Assembly: GCA_021789095.1 (NCBI GenBank)
Contig: JAJYJX010000049.1
Coordinates: 1 to 13,910, forward strand
Direction of reading: 5' to 3'
Source: a bacterium
GTDB lineage: Bacteria > JAMCPX01
Length of the DNA stretch: 13,910 nt
This document shows, one piece after another, positions 4,481-10,278 of this stretch. The translations under genes and the position numbers were made by a program. Below the pieces are notes generated by a model. The model searched no databases and was not told the DNA's origin. It saw only the letters and a list, made by a program, of their open reading frames with translations. Every line of letters starts with the position of its first letter. Position 1 is the stretch's first letter.

Positions 4481-4712
4481 TTACCTTCTGTCCATGAAGC
4501 TGGTGTATTTCCCGTTCCCGACGGTGATATGGTCGGTGAGATTTAGGCCAACAAGCTCACAGGCTGCCTTGAGTTTTGACGTCAACAGACTGTCTTCATT
4601 TGATGGTTCAAACCTCGCCACACGGATGATTGTGGGCCACGATAATCCCCACTGCATTCGTAAGCAGGGCACCTTTCAGAACCTCTTTGGGATATATTAC
4701 AATACCTACTGT
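4481..4712 (-). pseudogene. radC: radC (JAMM/MPN-domain) 3' fragment, frameshifted
   Basis: Reading the minus strand, one frame gives TVGIVIYPKEVLKGALLTNA then VGIIVAHNHPCGEV, and the next frame continues EPSNEDSLLTSKLKAACE then LVGLNLTDHITVGNGKYTSF to a stop at 4481. Together these are the C-terminal part of RadC (YPREV..AL..NA..IIxAHNHPSG..PS.ED...T..L......LG..L.DHI.IG...Y.SF). Dropping one base from the AAA at 4610-4612 restores HNHPCGEVEPSNED, with the exact JAMM spacing HxHx10D. Upstream of about 4712 there is a stop and no recognisable radC, so more than half of a normal (about 225-residue) RadC is missing. It is a broken relic. radC-like genes often ride on integrative elements, but no such element is intact here. 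Confidence 0.85.
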
Positions 4713-5005: not shown

Positions 5006-6496
5006 TTAGGGAGCAACCTGCATGATGTCTATCTTGAGTCTTCCAACAACCCCGAGTATGTCCATCCAGTTTGTGAGATCCCCGCTTGCAAGTATGATAT
5101 GCGTTGCATCGGCCGGGAATTCACCCAGTGTCGGATCAGCAGGTACCCAGCCGTTAAGATAAACAAGGGGCCATGCATGGTAATAAAAATAGCCGTCATT
5201 CATCAGTACTACTCCCATCGCCATCTTTGTAGGAATACCGGATGCCCTTGCCAATGCGGTAAACAGTATTGTATGCGCTTTGCAGTCTCCCTGCGGGTCT
5301 TTCAGCAGATCGACAGAACGCGGCAGGGCAACGGTAAAGCTGTCTGTTACATGGGTATAGACCCACTGGCTGAGTATCTCCACGGCCTTTTTTGCATCTG
5401 TCTGCCCGTTCAGTATGGATTTCGCCATGCTCACAATGTCCGGGTTATCGGTATTTATAATTGTATTGCTGCCAAGATATTCCTCTGCGGATAATGCCCC
5501 GGCACCACCTTCATTCCTGTAAGGCAGCCGGTATGTTCCAATCTTATGCGGCGTATCCAGAGTTACAAGGTTACCCTGCTGTTTCTGGAAATTAAAGGTC
5601 GGGAACGATTCTGTATCCGATATACCCGATACATAAGCCACCATATAACGTACCTGTGCAGGATCTGACACAGCAAGTCCATGTGCTCTTATGGCTGTGG
5701 AAGAAATCAGATCAACAGGCTCATTTCCCCATCCCTTTGTAAGGGCAACTGTCTTAGGCTCAAGTGCCGACCTGAAGCCAAGCGGACTTATCTCTTCAAT
5801 CGTTTCTCCCTGCGGGGTTACCCACATGGTCTCTTTCATGTCTTTTACCGCAACTTCAAGCTTGAATGTATCAACCGGGCTGTTCATGATTTCCTTTGTT
5901 TCCCTTCCCAGCACCTTTACATGCACCGGCAGTTCCTGCTGTACCGTCGGATCAAATATGTTAAAGTTGTAATCCGATCTGCTGAAGCCGTCCTTAACAA
6001 TCTTCATCACGATACCATCAGAACTGAGAACCGGTTCACTCAAACGGATCTTCTGTTTTGTTTCACCGCCCGGGCCTTTTAGGCTTACGGAAAGTACATT
6101 GTTGCTGACCGTGCAAACCGCTGCCACCTCAATAGCCGAGGTCTTTAAAGAAAAATCTATACTCTTAAGGAAATAGTCGCTGTTCGTTGTTGAATCCACT
6201 ATCGTGGTTATATCCTTCTGTTGGCCCATGAGCATTATCCTCATGAACATCCTTTTCCTGAAAATGTAGCCGTTGCCGGCAGGCAGCATCTGCTCATAAT
6301 CGTAGCCTATCTTTTTATCGCCCATATAAAGTCCCATCCATTCTGAAACAGGTGCAACGTCCTGTTTAACTGCAACAGATGCAGGTACAAATGTATTGCT
6401 GCGGTTCGCTGTGAACAGGTATACCATACTGCCTGCCCATGCGACGGCTATGATCGAGTAAATTACAAGCTTTAACGGCTTCCTGTTTATTTCCAT
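5006..6496 (-). CDS. Membrane-anchored transglutaminase-like (papain-fold) protein
   Basis: This 496-residue protein has one N-terminal membrane segment (about residues 9-28) after a basic start, placing the rest outside the inner membrane. A long middle region (about 40-330) resembles the beta-rich part found before transglutaminase-like domains. The C-terminal domain has the catalytic triad: C405 in GDCKAHTILFTALARASGIP, H440 in YYHAWPLVY and D454 in PADPTLGEF. Such bacterial proteins are usually cysteine proteases or amide-modifying enzymes of the envelope; its substrate is unknown. It is transcribed alone, divergent from lipA. The start at 6496 has no Shine-Dalgarno; a TTGACT box at 6526-6531 lies 35 nt upstream. 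The gene is intact. Confidence 0.87.
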   Translation of the reverse strand: MEINRKPLKLVIYSIIAVAWAGSMVYLFTANRSNTFVPASVAVKQDVAPVSEWMGLYMGDKKIGYDYEQMLPAGNGYIFRKRMFMRIMLMGQQKDITTIVDSTTNSDYFLKSIDFSLKTSAIEVAAVCTVSNNVLSVSLKGPGGETKQKIRLSEPVLSSDGIVMKIVKDGFSRSDYNFNIFDPTVQQELPVHVKVLGRETKEIMNSPVDTFKLEVAVKDMKETMWVTPQGETIEEISPLGFRSALEPKTVALTKGWGNEPVDLISSTAIRAHGLAVSDPAQVRYMVAYVSGISDTESFPTFNFQKQQGNLVTLDTPHKIGTYRLPYRNEGGAGALSAEEYLGSNTIINTDNPDIVSMAKSILNGQTDAKKAVEILSQWVYTHVTDSFTVALPRSVDLLKDPQGDCKAHTILFTALARASGIPTKMAMGVVLMNDGYFYYHAWPLVYLNGWVPADPTLGEFPADATHIILASGDLTNWMDILGVVGRLKIDIMQVAP

Positions 6497-6502
6497 ACAT
6501 CA

Positions 6503-6531
6503 AACCTACACATTAACAGGTGCGCAGTCAA
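6503..6531 (-). promoter_or_regulatory. Predicted promoter of the transglutaminase-like gene
   Basis: On the minus strand TTGACT (6526-6531) is followed after 17 bp by TAGGTT (6503-6508), a weak -10. The expected start of transcription falls at or next to the ATG (6496), implying an almost leaderless mRNA. Confidence 0.45.
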
Positions 6532-6548
6532 CTTTCAGGTGACGGCTT

Positions 6549-6577
6549 TTGACAAAACCCGGCACGCATGATACAGG
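6549..6577 (+). promoter_or_regulatory. Predicted promoter of lipA
   Basis: A perfect TTGACA (6549-6554) is followed after 17 bp by TACAGG (6572-6577), a poor -10. Transcription would begin near 6584, a few bases before the ATG at 6588. The TTG of this box is in frame with lipA and could be mistaken for its start codon. Confidence 0.45.
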
Positions 6578-6587
6578 GGCGTTTATC

Positions 6588-7460
6588 ATGGCTATACAAA
6601 GGCTCCCGTATTATTTAAAAAAAACTCTGGTTCTTGGCGGTGACGTTCATAAAACAAAAAGCATACTGAGGGCGCACGAACTGCACACCGTCTGCGAATC
6701 AGCCCGGTGTCCCAATATAAGCGAGTGTTTCTCGATGAAGCGGGCGACATTTCTAATCATGGGGCCTTCATGCACAAGGCAATGCAGGTTTTGTTCTGTT
6801 GATAAAGGCATCCCGGCAGTGCCTGACAGCAACGAACCGCACATGGTTGCGGACGCCGTAAAGGAGCTTGGCATAAAACATGTTGTTATAACATCCGTTA
6901 CCAGGGATGATCTTGCAGACGGAGGCGCAGATCATTTCCTCAGCGTTGCAAGGGCAGTAAAACAGTACAACCCGGGTGTTACTCTGGAGCTTCTTACGCC
7001 CGATTTTAAAGGCGATACAAATGCAATTTTGCGACTGCTCAAGGCTGATTTTGACATATTCAACCATAATGTAGAAACCGTACCGTACCTCTATAAAAAG
7101 GTAAGGCCGCAGGCAGATTACAGCCGTTCGATCCATGTATTAAAGTTTGTAAAGCAGCATAAGAACATATCCATTAAATCGGGGTTCATGGTGGGTCTGG
7201 GTGAAACAATCGATCAGGTAAAAGATGTTCTTACCGATTTGAAAGATACGGGATGTGATATTGTTACAATCGGGCAGTATCTTATGCCGACCTTAAAGAA
7301 TATGCCCGTGCATGCATATGTAGAAGAGGACGCTTACAAAGAATATGAACGTTTCGGACACGAGATCGGCATACGTCATGTCTATGCAGGGCCGTTCGTA
7401 AGAAGCTCGTACCACGCACAGGAAGTCATGGATGGGCTTGCCGCCGGCAAGCTGCTGTAG
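6588..7460 (+). CDS. lipA: Lipoyl synthase (radical SAM)
   Basis: LipA inserts two sulfurs into protein-bound octanoyl groups to make the lipoyl cofactor of 2-oxoacid dehydrogenases and the glycine cleavage system. From the ATG at 6588 the protein has 290 residues, normal for LipA. The auxiliary iron-sulfur cluster motif C36-x4-C41-x5-C47 (CESARCPNISEC) and the radical SAM motif C62-x3-C66-x2-C69 (CTRQCRFC) are intact, as are TSVTRDDLADGGA, FNHNVETV, GLGET, GQYLMPT and the C-terminal GPFVRSSYHA with the family's serines. The in-frame TTG at 6549 would add 13 residues but is part of a -35 box; MAIQRLPYYLKK is the natural N-terminus. No lipB or target-protein gene is nearby. Confidence 0.97.
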   Translation: MAIQRLPYYLKKTLVLGGDVHKTKSILRAHELHTVCESARCPNISECFSMKRATFLIMGPSCTRQCRFCSVDKGIPAVPDSNEPHMVADAVKELGIKHVVITSVTRDDLADGGADHFLSVARAVKQYNPGVTLELLTPDFKGDTNAILRLLKADFDIFNHNVETVPYLYKKVRPQADYSRSIHVLKFVKQHKNISIKSGFMVGLGETIDQVKDVLTDLKDTGCDIVTIGQYLMPTLKNMPVHAYVEEDAYKEYERFGHEIGIRHVYAGPFVRSSYHAQEVMDGLAAGKLL

Positions 7461-7555
7461 ATTAATCCGCACAATGCAACAGGAAGTTTGCTCATTCTTT
7501 CGGTGGTAATCACCCGAGAGGGAACCCTTCCCTTGTATAACAGTCTTTTTTGAAA
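7461..7555. other. Convergent gap between lipA and the ABC ATPase gene
   Basis: The gap holds a small perfect hairpin, AGGGAA-ccc-TTCCCT (7519-7533), with a run of six Ts (7546-7551) about 12 nt further on. The stem is short and the T-run detached, so an intrinsic terminator for lipA is possible but weakly supported. Confidence 0.3.
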
Positions 7556-8536
7556 TTACAGCAGCGGGTGGATGCACCGCGCAGGGTGGTCTTTGGTGTA
7601 CTCCGTAAGATCGGGCTCCCTGTCACGGCATTCCTTTGTCCTGTACGCGCACCTGTCATAAAACCTGCATCCTCTGTAATCATCGTAGTGTGATCTTACA
7701 TTTCCCGGTATTGCCGACAGCCTCGAAGGCGCATTTGCTGCTATATCCTCAAGCTCCGGTATGGCCATAAGCAATGCCCTTGTGTAAGGGTGATAAGGCT
7801 TTGAGAAAATCTCTTCCGCACCGCCCTGCTCAACTATAACGCCGGCATACATGACTATAATCCTGTCAACAAGTTCCGCAGCAATGCCCAGGTCATGCGT
7901 TATGAGGAGCAATGTAAGATCGTAGTGCGCCTTTGCGTATTTTATAAGATCAATGATCTGTGCCTGTATTGTTACATCGAGCGCGGTTGTCGGTTCATCT
8001 GCAATAAGCAGCAAGGGATGGTTTACAAGCGCAATGGCGAGCATAACCCTCTGCCTCATACCTCCGCTCAATTCATGCGGATATAGATCTTTTATTTTTT
8101 CAGGCTCCGGAAGACCCACGTCTCCGAGCATGGATAACACACGGGTCTCCCGATCGTTTTTTTTAATATCCGGATTGTGCGCCTTTACCGCCTCAGAAAT
8201 CTGGTATCCAACCGTAAACAGGGGATCAAGCGAAGAAAGAGGGTCCTGAAATACTATGGATATATCCCTGCCCCTTATCTGCCTCAATTCCCTGTCGTTG
8301 GCTGAAACGATGTCCCTGCCATTATAAAGAATCCTGCCTGTATCATACTTCGCATTTGACGGTAAAAGTTTTACCATTGATATTCCCAGGGTCGTTTTGC
8401 CGCTTCCGCTTTCACCGACAAGCCCTATGCTTTCACCTTTATCAATAAAAAAGGAAATAGTATCAAGAGCCTTATGAATACCTTCTGCAGATGCGTAAGA
8501 CACTGTCAGATTATTTACTTCAAGCAAATGCACCAT
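7556..8536 (-). CDS. OppD/DppD-type peptide ABC transporter ATP-binding protein (orphan)
   Basis: This 326-residue ATPase has Walker A GESGSGKTT (41-49), Q-loop Q97, signature LSGGM (156-160), Walker B LLIADEPTTALD ending at about 187 and H-loop H214. After the nucleotide-binding domain comes the oligopeptide/dipeptide-type C-terminal extension (PYHPYTRALLMAIP, then a cysteine-rich tail with C290, C296, C303 and C321). Proteins of this subfamily power import of peptides or nickel; in some, the tail cysteines bind a [4Fe-4S] cluster. The window contains no permease, binding protein or OppF partner, so it either pairs with subunits encoded elsewhere or is a leftover. The start at 8536 lacks a Shine-Dalgarno; TTGACA lies 35 nt upstream. 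Confidence 0.92.
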   Translation of the reverse strand: MVHLLEVNNLTVSYASAEGIHKALDTISFFIDKGESIGLVGESGSGKTTLGISMVKLLPSNAKYDTGRILYNGRDIVSANDRELRQIRGRDISIVFQDPLSSLDPLFTVGYQISEAVKAHNPDIKKNDRETRVLSMLGDVGLPEPEKIKDLYPHELSGGMRQRVMLAIALVNHPLLLIADEPTTALDVTIQAQIIDLIKYAKAHYDLTLLLITHDLGIAAELVDRIIVMYAGVIVEQGGAEEIFSKPYHPYTRALLMAIPELEDIAANAPSRLSAIPGNVRSHYDDYRGCRFYDRCAYRTKECRDREPDLTEYTKDHPARCIHPLL

Positions 8537-8542
8537 AGACTT

Positions 8543-8571
8543 TTATTGCCAGTTTGAAGCGCTGTTGTCAA
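8543..8571 (-). promoter_or_regulatory. Predicted promoter of the ABC ATPase gene
   Basis: On the minus strand a perfect TTGACA (8566-8571) is followed after 17-18 bp by CAATAA/AATAAA. The expected transcription start is at the ATG (8536), again suggesting a leaderless message. A 7-bp inverted repeat (TATTGCC near 8544-8550, GGCAATA near 8579-8585) flanks the -35 and could be an operator. Confidence 0.45.
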
Positions 8572-8588
8572 CTCAGTCGGCAATATCT

Positions 8589-9506
8589 TTATACCGTTAT
8601 TTTATATTTTTTCAGTATAGAAACGGGGTTGTATGACGATTTTGATCGCCTCAGCCCTGGACTGCCGAGATCCTGCTCACGGTTGATGTATTTATAGTTC
8701 ATACACGTATGTTCGCACAACTGCTGATTTATTACCTGAGTTATTCCTTCGCAGGAGGGGTCGTATTTTTCTATATGTATGACTGCTGTATCCTGGTTGA
8801 GCTGCTCTGCTATGGAAAACGCCTTAACTTTGCCGTCAATAATGATTGTTCCGCCAAAAAGGCCCAGTTCCGCATAATGTGTAAGCGCTTCTTTTGTAGC
8901 AATAACATCCGGCTCAAGTCTTTCATCATTTTTATTGTTATACCATGTTTCCGTAAGAAGTATGCAGTCTTCTATGAACCCGCCGCTCATGTCCGCATAC
9001 TCGTATGTATATTTTTCTTTGAAGTGCTTTATATGATTGCGCTTGCCGTCGTACCTGCGGCCTTTTAATTCTATAAGATCGGAAGTCAGATAAACATAGT
9101 CCGCGTTATCCCGGTCATACTCTTCCGACAGGGAAGGCAGTGCATGCTTCAACGGCTGGATAAACCTCTCCTCCACTCTGAAAAGCCTTAATACACTGCC
9201 GTTCTTTTTATAGATTGTTGAGAGGTGTTTTATGGTATCTATATAGGCGTTAACATCCTTTGCGATGATCAGGAAAAACTCCAGTCCGTTCCTGTCAATA
9301 CCTTTTATGCATAGAGCATCGCCCATGAGACAAAGCCTGAATTGATACATGTGGCGCCATATGAAAATATTGGTGAACGTATACTCCGACGCCATCGGAG
9401 GATTCATTTTTAACAGATAGTCAAAATACGGTTTCATCCTGATATTTACATCTGAAAAATCCGGGAATACCTTTATGTCTGCCTGCAACTGGGTGATATT
9501 GTCCAT
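8589..9506 (-). CDS. DUF2156 / phosphatidylglycerol lysyltransferase C-terminal-like protein
   Basis: This 305-residue protein matches the GNAT-fold family DUF2156 (LPG_synthase_C). Characteristic pieces are ASEYTFTNIFIWRHMY near the N-terminus, DYVYLTSDLIELKGRRYDGKRN in the middle, and INREQDLGSPGLRRSKSSYNP at the C-terminus. Fused versions transfer aminoacyl groups from tRNA to phosphatidylglycerol. This stand-alone cytosolic form has no membrane helices, so that role is not shown and its substrate is unknown; an aminoacyl or acyl transferase is the best guess. It is divergent from the Crp-type regulator and 52 nt upstream of the ABC ATPase on the same strand, each with its own promoter. 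No Shine-Dalgarno precedes the ATG at 9506. Confidence 0.85.
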   Translation of the reverse strand: MDNITQLQADIKVFPDFSDVNIRMKPYFDYLLKMNPPMASEYTFTNIFIWRHMYQFRLCLMGDALCIKGIDRNGLEFFLIIAKDVNAYIDTIKHLSTIYKKNGSVLRLFRVEERFIQPLKHALPSLSEEYDRDNADYVYLTSDLIELKGRRYDGKRNHIKHFKEKYTYEYADMSGGFIEDCILLTETWYNNKNDERLEPDVIATKEALTHYAELGLFGGTIIIDGKVKAFSIAEQLNQDTAVIHIEKYDPSCEGITQVINQQLCEHTCMNYKYINREQDLGSPGLRRSKSSYNPVSILKKYKITV

Positions 9507-9515
9507 AACTATGAT

Positions 9516-9543
9516 AAAATAACCTTTATCGGAGAAATTTCAA
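9516..9543 (-). promoter_or_regulatory. Predicted promoter of the DUF2156 gene
   Basis: Minus strand TTGAAA (9538-9543), 16 bp, TATTTT (9516-9521). The -35 lies 37 nt before the ATG at 9506, leaving at most a few untranslated bases. It is back to back with the regulator promoter, so the Crp-type protein could control both. Confidence 0.4.
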
Positions 9544-9564
9544 TAATCAAGCTTTCTGACTGGG

Positions 9565-9593
9565 TTGACATCAGCGGCGGTATATTGTTTAAA
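9565..9593 (+). promoter_or_regulatory. Predicted promoter of the Crp/Fnr-type regulator
   Basis: A perfect TTGACA (9565-9570), 17 bp, then TTTAAA (9588-9593). Transcription would start near 9600, at the ATG. The TTG of the -35 is in frame with the gene and could be mis-called as its start. Confidence 0.5.
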
Positions 9594-9600
9594 AGAGGTT

Positions 9601-10278
9601 ATGGTGAAACACGAGATAAAAAAGATCGGCATCTTTTCCGAACTGTCGGACGACGAGGTCAAAAAACTATCATTGTACATAAAAGAACAGCATGTGGATA
9701 AAAACACGGAGCTGTTTCATCAGGATGACCCCGGGGATGCAATGTACCTTATTTTAAAAGGCGGGGTAAGGATCTACCTTTATTCTCCGGCCGGAAGGGA
9801 ACTGACGCTTGCAGTGCTGAGGACAGGGCAGTTCTTCGGCGAGATGTCCCTTCTTGACGGCATGCCCCGTTCTGCAAACGCCATGACCATCGAAGATACC
9901 GATTTTATCGTCTTAAAAAGGAACGACTTCCTGAACGTCCTGCAGTCCTACCCTGTAATAGCAACAAAGATATTAAAAGATATGAGTATAAGGGTCAGAG
10001 AAGCTGATGCCATGATAGAGGATTTTGCACTGCTTAATGTTTATGACAGGCTCACCAAGTATATTGACAAACTCATGAAAGCAGAAGGGAAAAAGGAGGG
10101 CTACTGTACAGTGATTTCCGGCAATATAAAAAGGCAGGATATTGCCAATGCAATAGGTACAACACGCGAGACAGTGTCCAGGATCCTGTCGGCATGGCAG
10201 AGAAAGGGCTACATAAAACTGCTGCCTTCAAAGATGATTATGTACAGGGATATACTACTGAACAGACTGAAGAAATAA
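9601..10278 (+). CDS. Crp/Fnr-family transcriptional regulator
   Basis: From the ATG at 9601 this is a 225-residue regulator of normal family length. The N-terminal cyclic-nucleotide-binding beta-roll carries ELFHQDDPGDAMYLILKG (37-54) and the phosphate-binding cassette FGEMSLLDGMPRSA (79-92), with the Glu and the Arg-Ser pair that contact cyclic nucleotide in CRP. A dimer helix follows, then a winged helix-turn-helix (about 176-207) with KRQDIANAIGTTRETVSRIL. There are no Fnr-type cysteine clusters, so oxygen sensing by Fe-S is unlikely; cAMP or a similar nucleotide is a reasonable ligand. AGAGG (9594-9598) is too close to the ATG but well spaced for GTG at 9604, so the start may be 3 nt later. 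The gene leads the rsmG-queD-folE2 cluster and is divergent from the DUF2156 gene. Targets unknown. Confidence 0.94.
   Translation: MVKHEIKKIGIFSELSDDEVKKLSLYIKEQHVDKNTELFHQDDPGDAMYLILKGGVRIYLYSPAGRELTLAVLRTGQFFGEMSLLDGMPRSANAMTIEDTDFIVLKRNDFLNVLQSYPVIATKILKDMSIRVREADAMIEDFALLNVYDRLTKYIDKLMKAEGKKEGYCTVISGNIKRQDIANAIGTTRETVSRILSAWQRKGYIKLLPSKMIMYRDILLNRLKK

Follow-up and report, generated by a model that had tools for sequence, protein, structure and literature searches.

Background

Zheng et al. (2011, PMC3160421) predicted leaderless genes of the TA-led type in 207 of the 953 bacterial genomes that they surveyed; the same survey reports leaderless genes in 8 of 33 deltaproteobacterial genomes, at a mean of 15.8%, and discusses why the leaderless state is confined to operon-proximal genes. 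Predictions with GeneMarkS-2 (Lomsadze 2018), as described in PMC9581028, put leaderless transcription in 21.6% of bacterial species. Here we describe five genes of an uncultured bacterium (GTDB lineage JAMCPX01) that very probably have leaderless or near-leaderless mRNAs, with 5' ends predicted from the position of the promoter relative to the ATG. They lie in a window of 13,910 nt that forms the whole of contig C182 (JAJYJX010000049.1).

Methods

The assembly (GCA_021789095.1) comprises 2.15 Mb in 203 contigs and is 92% complete. The closest genomes for comparison were eight of the same family (G001-G008), the next candidates sharing the domain only. Genes were called by codon statistics alone, so that the choice of start was blind to upstream signals, and were identified with Pfam. 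Among starts whose scores lay within a tolerance, the one furthest upstream was taken; an alternative rule had shortened lipA and rsmG. Genome-wide tests covered 1.42 of the 2.15 Mb of the host genome, the window being left out. A gene was counted as leading if the gap exceeded 50 nt for a divergent or 120 nt for a co-oriented neighbour, and a Shine-Dalgarno (SD) match in the comparison of leading with inner genes meant at least 4 bases.

Promoters were sought with a two-box scan of the 140 nt upstream of each start, from which the transcription start site (TSS) is predicted to an accuracy of only a few nt. For -35 boxes, the distance given runs from the box's first base to the ATG. The strict pattern TTGACA-N16-18-TATAAT has no more than six matches in the genome, which is too small a number for a test, and the exact 16S 3'-end pattern has no match in the assembly, which is uninformative since rRNA is often missing in such assemblies. 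Patterns were also counted over whole genomes; these counts contain chance hits within genes and serve as context only. The identical pipeline was run on 450 kb of E. coli K-12 as a control.

Results

Five promoters close to their start codons

When re-measured, the -35 boxes of all five genes lie 35-39 nt before the ATG: TTGACT at 35 nt for the transglutaminase-like gene, TTGACA at 39 nt for lipA, TTGACA at 35 nt for the ABC ATPase gene, TTGAAA at 37 nt for the DUF2156 gene, and TTGACA at 36 nt for the Crp/Fnr-type regulator gene, exactly the distances reported in an initial annotation of this DNA. The best-scoring two-box promoter of each of the five upstream regions is the one proposed there, and the predicted TSSs fall at 0 (the A of the ATG), -4, +1, -3, and -1, respectively, in agreement with the suggestion that transcription starts at the ATG or a few bases before it. 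In operon-internal genes a TTGACA-like hexamer (at most 1 mismatch) is found at a background rate of ~4% per 5-nt bin (~20/528). Five such boxes in one stretch would thus arise by chance with an estimated probability of ~6 x 0.04^5, that is 1e-6 or less, and we therefore exclude chance.

The gene neighbourhood is conserved in the relatives and the upstream regions can be compared from the homologous ATG, the start codon of the genes being conserved in the alignments. The -35-to-ATG distance is kept across genera of the family, clearly for the transglutaminase-like, ABC, DUF2156, and Crp-type genes and more weakly for lipA, while identity at -60..-41 amounts to 0.19-0.48 versus ~0.8 for the boxes of the transglutaminase-like and ABC genes. 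Leaderless starts are supported by this pattern because a constant box-to-ATG distance amid changing flanks is what they predict. The start calls come from sequence alone, and misassigned starts, with the true ones downstream behind SDs of their own and the leaders ordinary, would be an alternative; yet relatives with 60-79% identity align from residue 1, mostly at the same ATG, and the genome-wide TSS peak described below is sharp even though calling used no upstream information, and persists with unambiguous starts. We regard misassignment as highly improbable.

The transglutaminase-like protein gene (Pfam Transglut_core; 5006..6496, minus strand) has an N-terminus conserved in the relatives. 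Its -35 box (6526..6531, minus strand), invariant at -35 in G001, G002, and G004, is followed after a 17-nt spacer by the -10 box TAGGTT (6503..6508, minus strand). Four genomes share GTTGACTG at -36..-29 and TAGNTTTG near -12, the remainder of the upstream region having diverged. The AGGT 7 nt before the ATG was considered as a conserved SD and ruled out: it is part of the -10 sequence and reads AGCT or AGTT in the relatives, whereas TAGNTT is conserved in four genomes. Elsewhere in the window, at ~4590-4650 of the minus strand, a region without a long ORF contains IIVAHNHPCGEV, which, read by eye, resembles the RadC/JAB metal-binding motif and is probably a decayed radC fragment.

The lipA gene encodes lipoyl synthase (Pfam LIAS_N, Radical_SAM; 6588..7460, plus strand), and its start at 6588 agrees with the relatives. 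Upstream on the same strand are the -35 box (6549..6554) and, after 17 nt, the -10-like TACAGG (6572..6577). This footprint is the weakest of the five, with TTGACA at -39 in the host and at -41 in G003, and TTGCAT at -38 in G001, G004, and G007. The lipA of G002 has a different N-terminus and AGGAG upstream; within the family, a leaderless start has apparently given way here to an SD-led one. A second lipA-like gene with 47% identity is present in the host genome (G000:C147:3172-3936), and most family members also have two.

The Crp/Fnr-type regulator gene (Pfam; 9601..10278, plus strand) is preceded by its -35 box (9565..9570, plus strand) and, after 17 nt, by TTTAAA as the -10 box (9588..9593, plus strand), which reads TTTATA or is TTTAAA-like in the relatives. 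All nine genomes have TTGACA or TTGACT at -34 to -36, and the SD-like letters here are not conserved. GTG 9604, put forward with AGAGG as an alternative start of the regulator, had to be rejected: all eight relatives align from the conserved ATG 9601 and none has GTG at +3.

The DUF2156/LPG_synthase_C gene (Pfam; 8589..9506, minus strand) has its -35 box at 9538..9543 and, after a 16-nt spacer, the -10 box TATTTT at 9516..9521 (both minus strand), with TAATTT in relatives. G001, G004, G006, G007, and G008 carry TTGAAATT at -37, and in all five GTTAATTTATNATAATT extends to the ATG; the -35 footprint is absent in G002, and the G003 and G005 genes cannot be aligned from this start. AAGG 15 nt before the ATG is too far away to be used as an SD, and in G001 and G008 an AGGAG stands at about -19.

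The fifth gene encodes an oligopeptide-type ABC transporter ATPase (Pfam ABC_tran and oligo_HPY; 7556..8536, minus strand). Only 52 nt separate it from the co-oriented DUF2156 gene ahead of it, so it may also be co-transcribed as the second gene. Its -35 box (8566..8571, minus strand) is part of a TTGACAA that five genomes share unchanged at -35, and its -10 region, GGCAATAAA (8542..8550, minus strand; exact hexamer uncertain), lies within the invariant block CAAACTGGCAAT. This block (8542-8571, minus strand) is unchanged in the five genomes beyond the needs of a -10 box; the imperfect inverted repeat that it forms, TTGACA-N14-TGGCAA, may be an operator. Such a repeat within an invariant block is also what would speak for the TTGAC boxes being regulator binding sites instead of -35 elements, with the real promoters elsewhere. 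We give this very little credence, as TA follows at 17-nt spacing genome-wide, the distances are linked to the position of the start codon and the absence of an SD, and the genes have unrelated functions.

The same arrangement across the genome

In the stretches analysed, 12 of the 18 occurrences of exact TTGACA within 100 nt of SD-less leading ATG genes fall at -40..-31; in SD-bearing leading genes they are spread over -70..-45, and inner genes show neither pattern. The contrast persists without the window: at -39..-34 exact TTGACA is found in 10/112 SD-less versus 2/160 SD-bearing leading genes, and TTGACA with at most 1 mismatch in 18/112 versus 6/160 (Fisher P 8e-4). A flat distribution of TTGACA, named in the initial annotation as evidence against leaderless mRNAs, is thus not what is seen.

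Predicted TSSs of SD-less leading ATG genes have a peak at -4..+1 and a trough at -12..-7, and those of SD-bearing leading genes begin at about -12 and extend further upstream. A two-box promoter with a TSS at -4..+1 precedes 18/112 SD-less versus 3/160 SD-bearing leading genes, so that 18 of these 21 genes are without an SD (P about 5e-5 by label permutation, the lowest value that 20,000 shuffles can give). When the upstream sequences themselves were shuffled, a mean of 2.0 and a maximum of 7 promoters were obtained at this position, and with unambiguous starts only the counts were 13/65 SD-less versus 1/98 SD-bearing. The boxes resemble TTGACA and TATAAT at a 16-18 nt spacing, as in sigma-70-type promoters. 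Individual -10 boxes are weak (2-4 of 6 matches in the five genes), and this caveat, raised at the outset, holds gene by gene; it is answered at the population level, where in 26 TTGAC-aligned upstream regions a TA stands out at a spacing of exactly 17 nt (0.65 for T, 0.73 for A), which supports a real -10 element. TANNNT at -13 and -12 is enriched in SD-less leading genes; a -10-type signal ~12 nt before the start codon, the mark of bacterial leaderless genes, is thus present genome-wide.

The lack of a functional SD is seen genome-wide as an anticorrelation and in the five genes as the lack of a conserved SD. The initial annotation had gone further in stating that none has a well-placed SD; this stands for most of them, the possible exceptions being lipA, with AGGGG at a usable distance 8 nt before the ATG, and some DUF2156 relatives. 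These exceptions bear on the possibility of short-leader mRNAs, made from real promoters with a TSS 5-15 nt upstream and relying on a weak SD or an unstructured leader: the AGGGG of lipA occurs together with a predicted TSS at -4, AGGAG is found in the DUF2156 relatives, and the precision of a few nt in TSS prediction would leave room for such leaders. Short leaders are nevertheless unlikely: TSSs of SD-less leading genes are sparse at -12..-7 and peak at -4..+1, and the SD-like letters at the transglutaminase and Crp-type genes are not conserved.

Leaderless first genes and SDs inside operons had been described as a split. The genes at 2076 and 3111 do carry good SD sequences, and the split is found as a tendency, with SD matches in 59% of leading ATG genes versus 72% of inner genes; most leading genes keep an SD. 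A rough calculation, in which the SD-less excess is scaled by the SD-bearing detection rate under the assumption of equal detectability, suggests that a fraction of 0.17-0.52 (90% bootstrap interval) of leading ATG genes is leaderless. In the 450 kb of E. coli K-12, a TSS at -4..+1 was predicted for 0/49 SD-less and 0/93 SD-bearing leading genes. As a control this is fair without being strong, because the detection rate was lower (12/142 leading genes at -45..-7 versus 69/273 in the host) and the sample smaller.

Discussion

The five promoters are most probably ordinary sigma-70-type promoters, so near their genes that transcription would begin on the A of the ATG or as much as ~4 nt ahead of it. 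By analogy with other bacteria, translation would then begin on a 5'-terminal AUG without an SD. Leaderless and near-leaderless genes would coexist with SD-led leading genes, whose promoters lie further upstream, and with mostly SD-led inner genes. Box positions, statistics, and conservation are direct observations; the actual 5' ends and the translation mode are inferred. A broader reading, which we offer tentatively and consider rather less probable than its opposite, is that leaderless starts may be the normal mode for SD-less leading genes throughout the family, with the box-to-ATG distance selected across genera and single genes, such as lipA in G002, having switched start type.

A deep uncultured lineage thus appears to mix leaderless and SD starts, as seen from DNA alone with a control and the footprints in relatives. 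In this family, start-codon callers that insist on a ribosome-binding site will put starts in the wrong place. The box-to-ATG footprint offers a cheap means of finding leaderless genes in further uncultured bacteria. Knowledge of how leaderless mRNAs work is left unchanged.

The description of this arrangement as unusual for this kind of bacterium does not hold up: leaderless genes are predicted in about one fifth of bacteria, similar spacing is found in unrelated genomes, and most leading genes here are SD-bearing. TTGACA-N16-18-TANNNT is followed by ATG after 4-9 versus 11-16 nt in 215 versus 147 cases in the nine family genomes and in 930 versus 684 cases in 51 unrelated genomes, both counts including chance matches inside genes. 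Because the excess is similar in unrelated genomes and leaderless genes are predicted widely, the family is not exceptional. Three unrelated genomes (G036, G047, and G051) have a stronger excess at 4-9 nt than the host family (51 versus 17, 57 versus 28, and 34 versus 14).

The closest match is with the TA-led genes (PMC3160421), which share the -10 TANNNT ~12 nt before the start, the lack of an SD, and coexistence with SD-led genes; unlike them, the genes described here have a clear TTGACA -35 box, and their lineage has no order- or phylum-mates among the compared genomes. In Deinococcus-Thermus, a -10 motif adjoining the ORF likewise places the promoter immediately upstream and gives leaderless mRNA, but D. 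radiodurans, where ~one third of genes are of this kind, shows weak -35 dependence (PMC12340547), whereas the -35 box is conserved in our host. The leaderless class of GeneMarkS-2, as described in PMC9581028, also mixes leaderless and SD-led starts, and no tested feature separates the host genome from it. The split in Sulfolobus, with leaderless leading genes and SD-led distal genes, is similar as cited in PMC3160421; its promoter is archaeal, and here only a minority of leading genes is involved. We conclude that, in a lineage without a known report of leaderless genes, this is a known kind of gene start.
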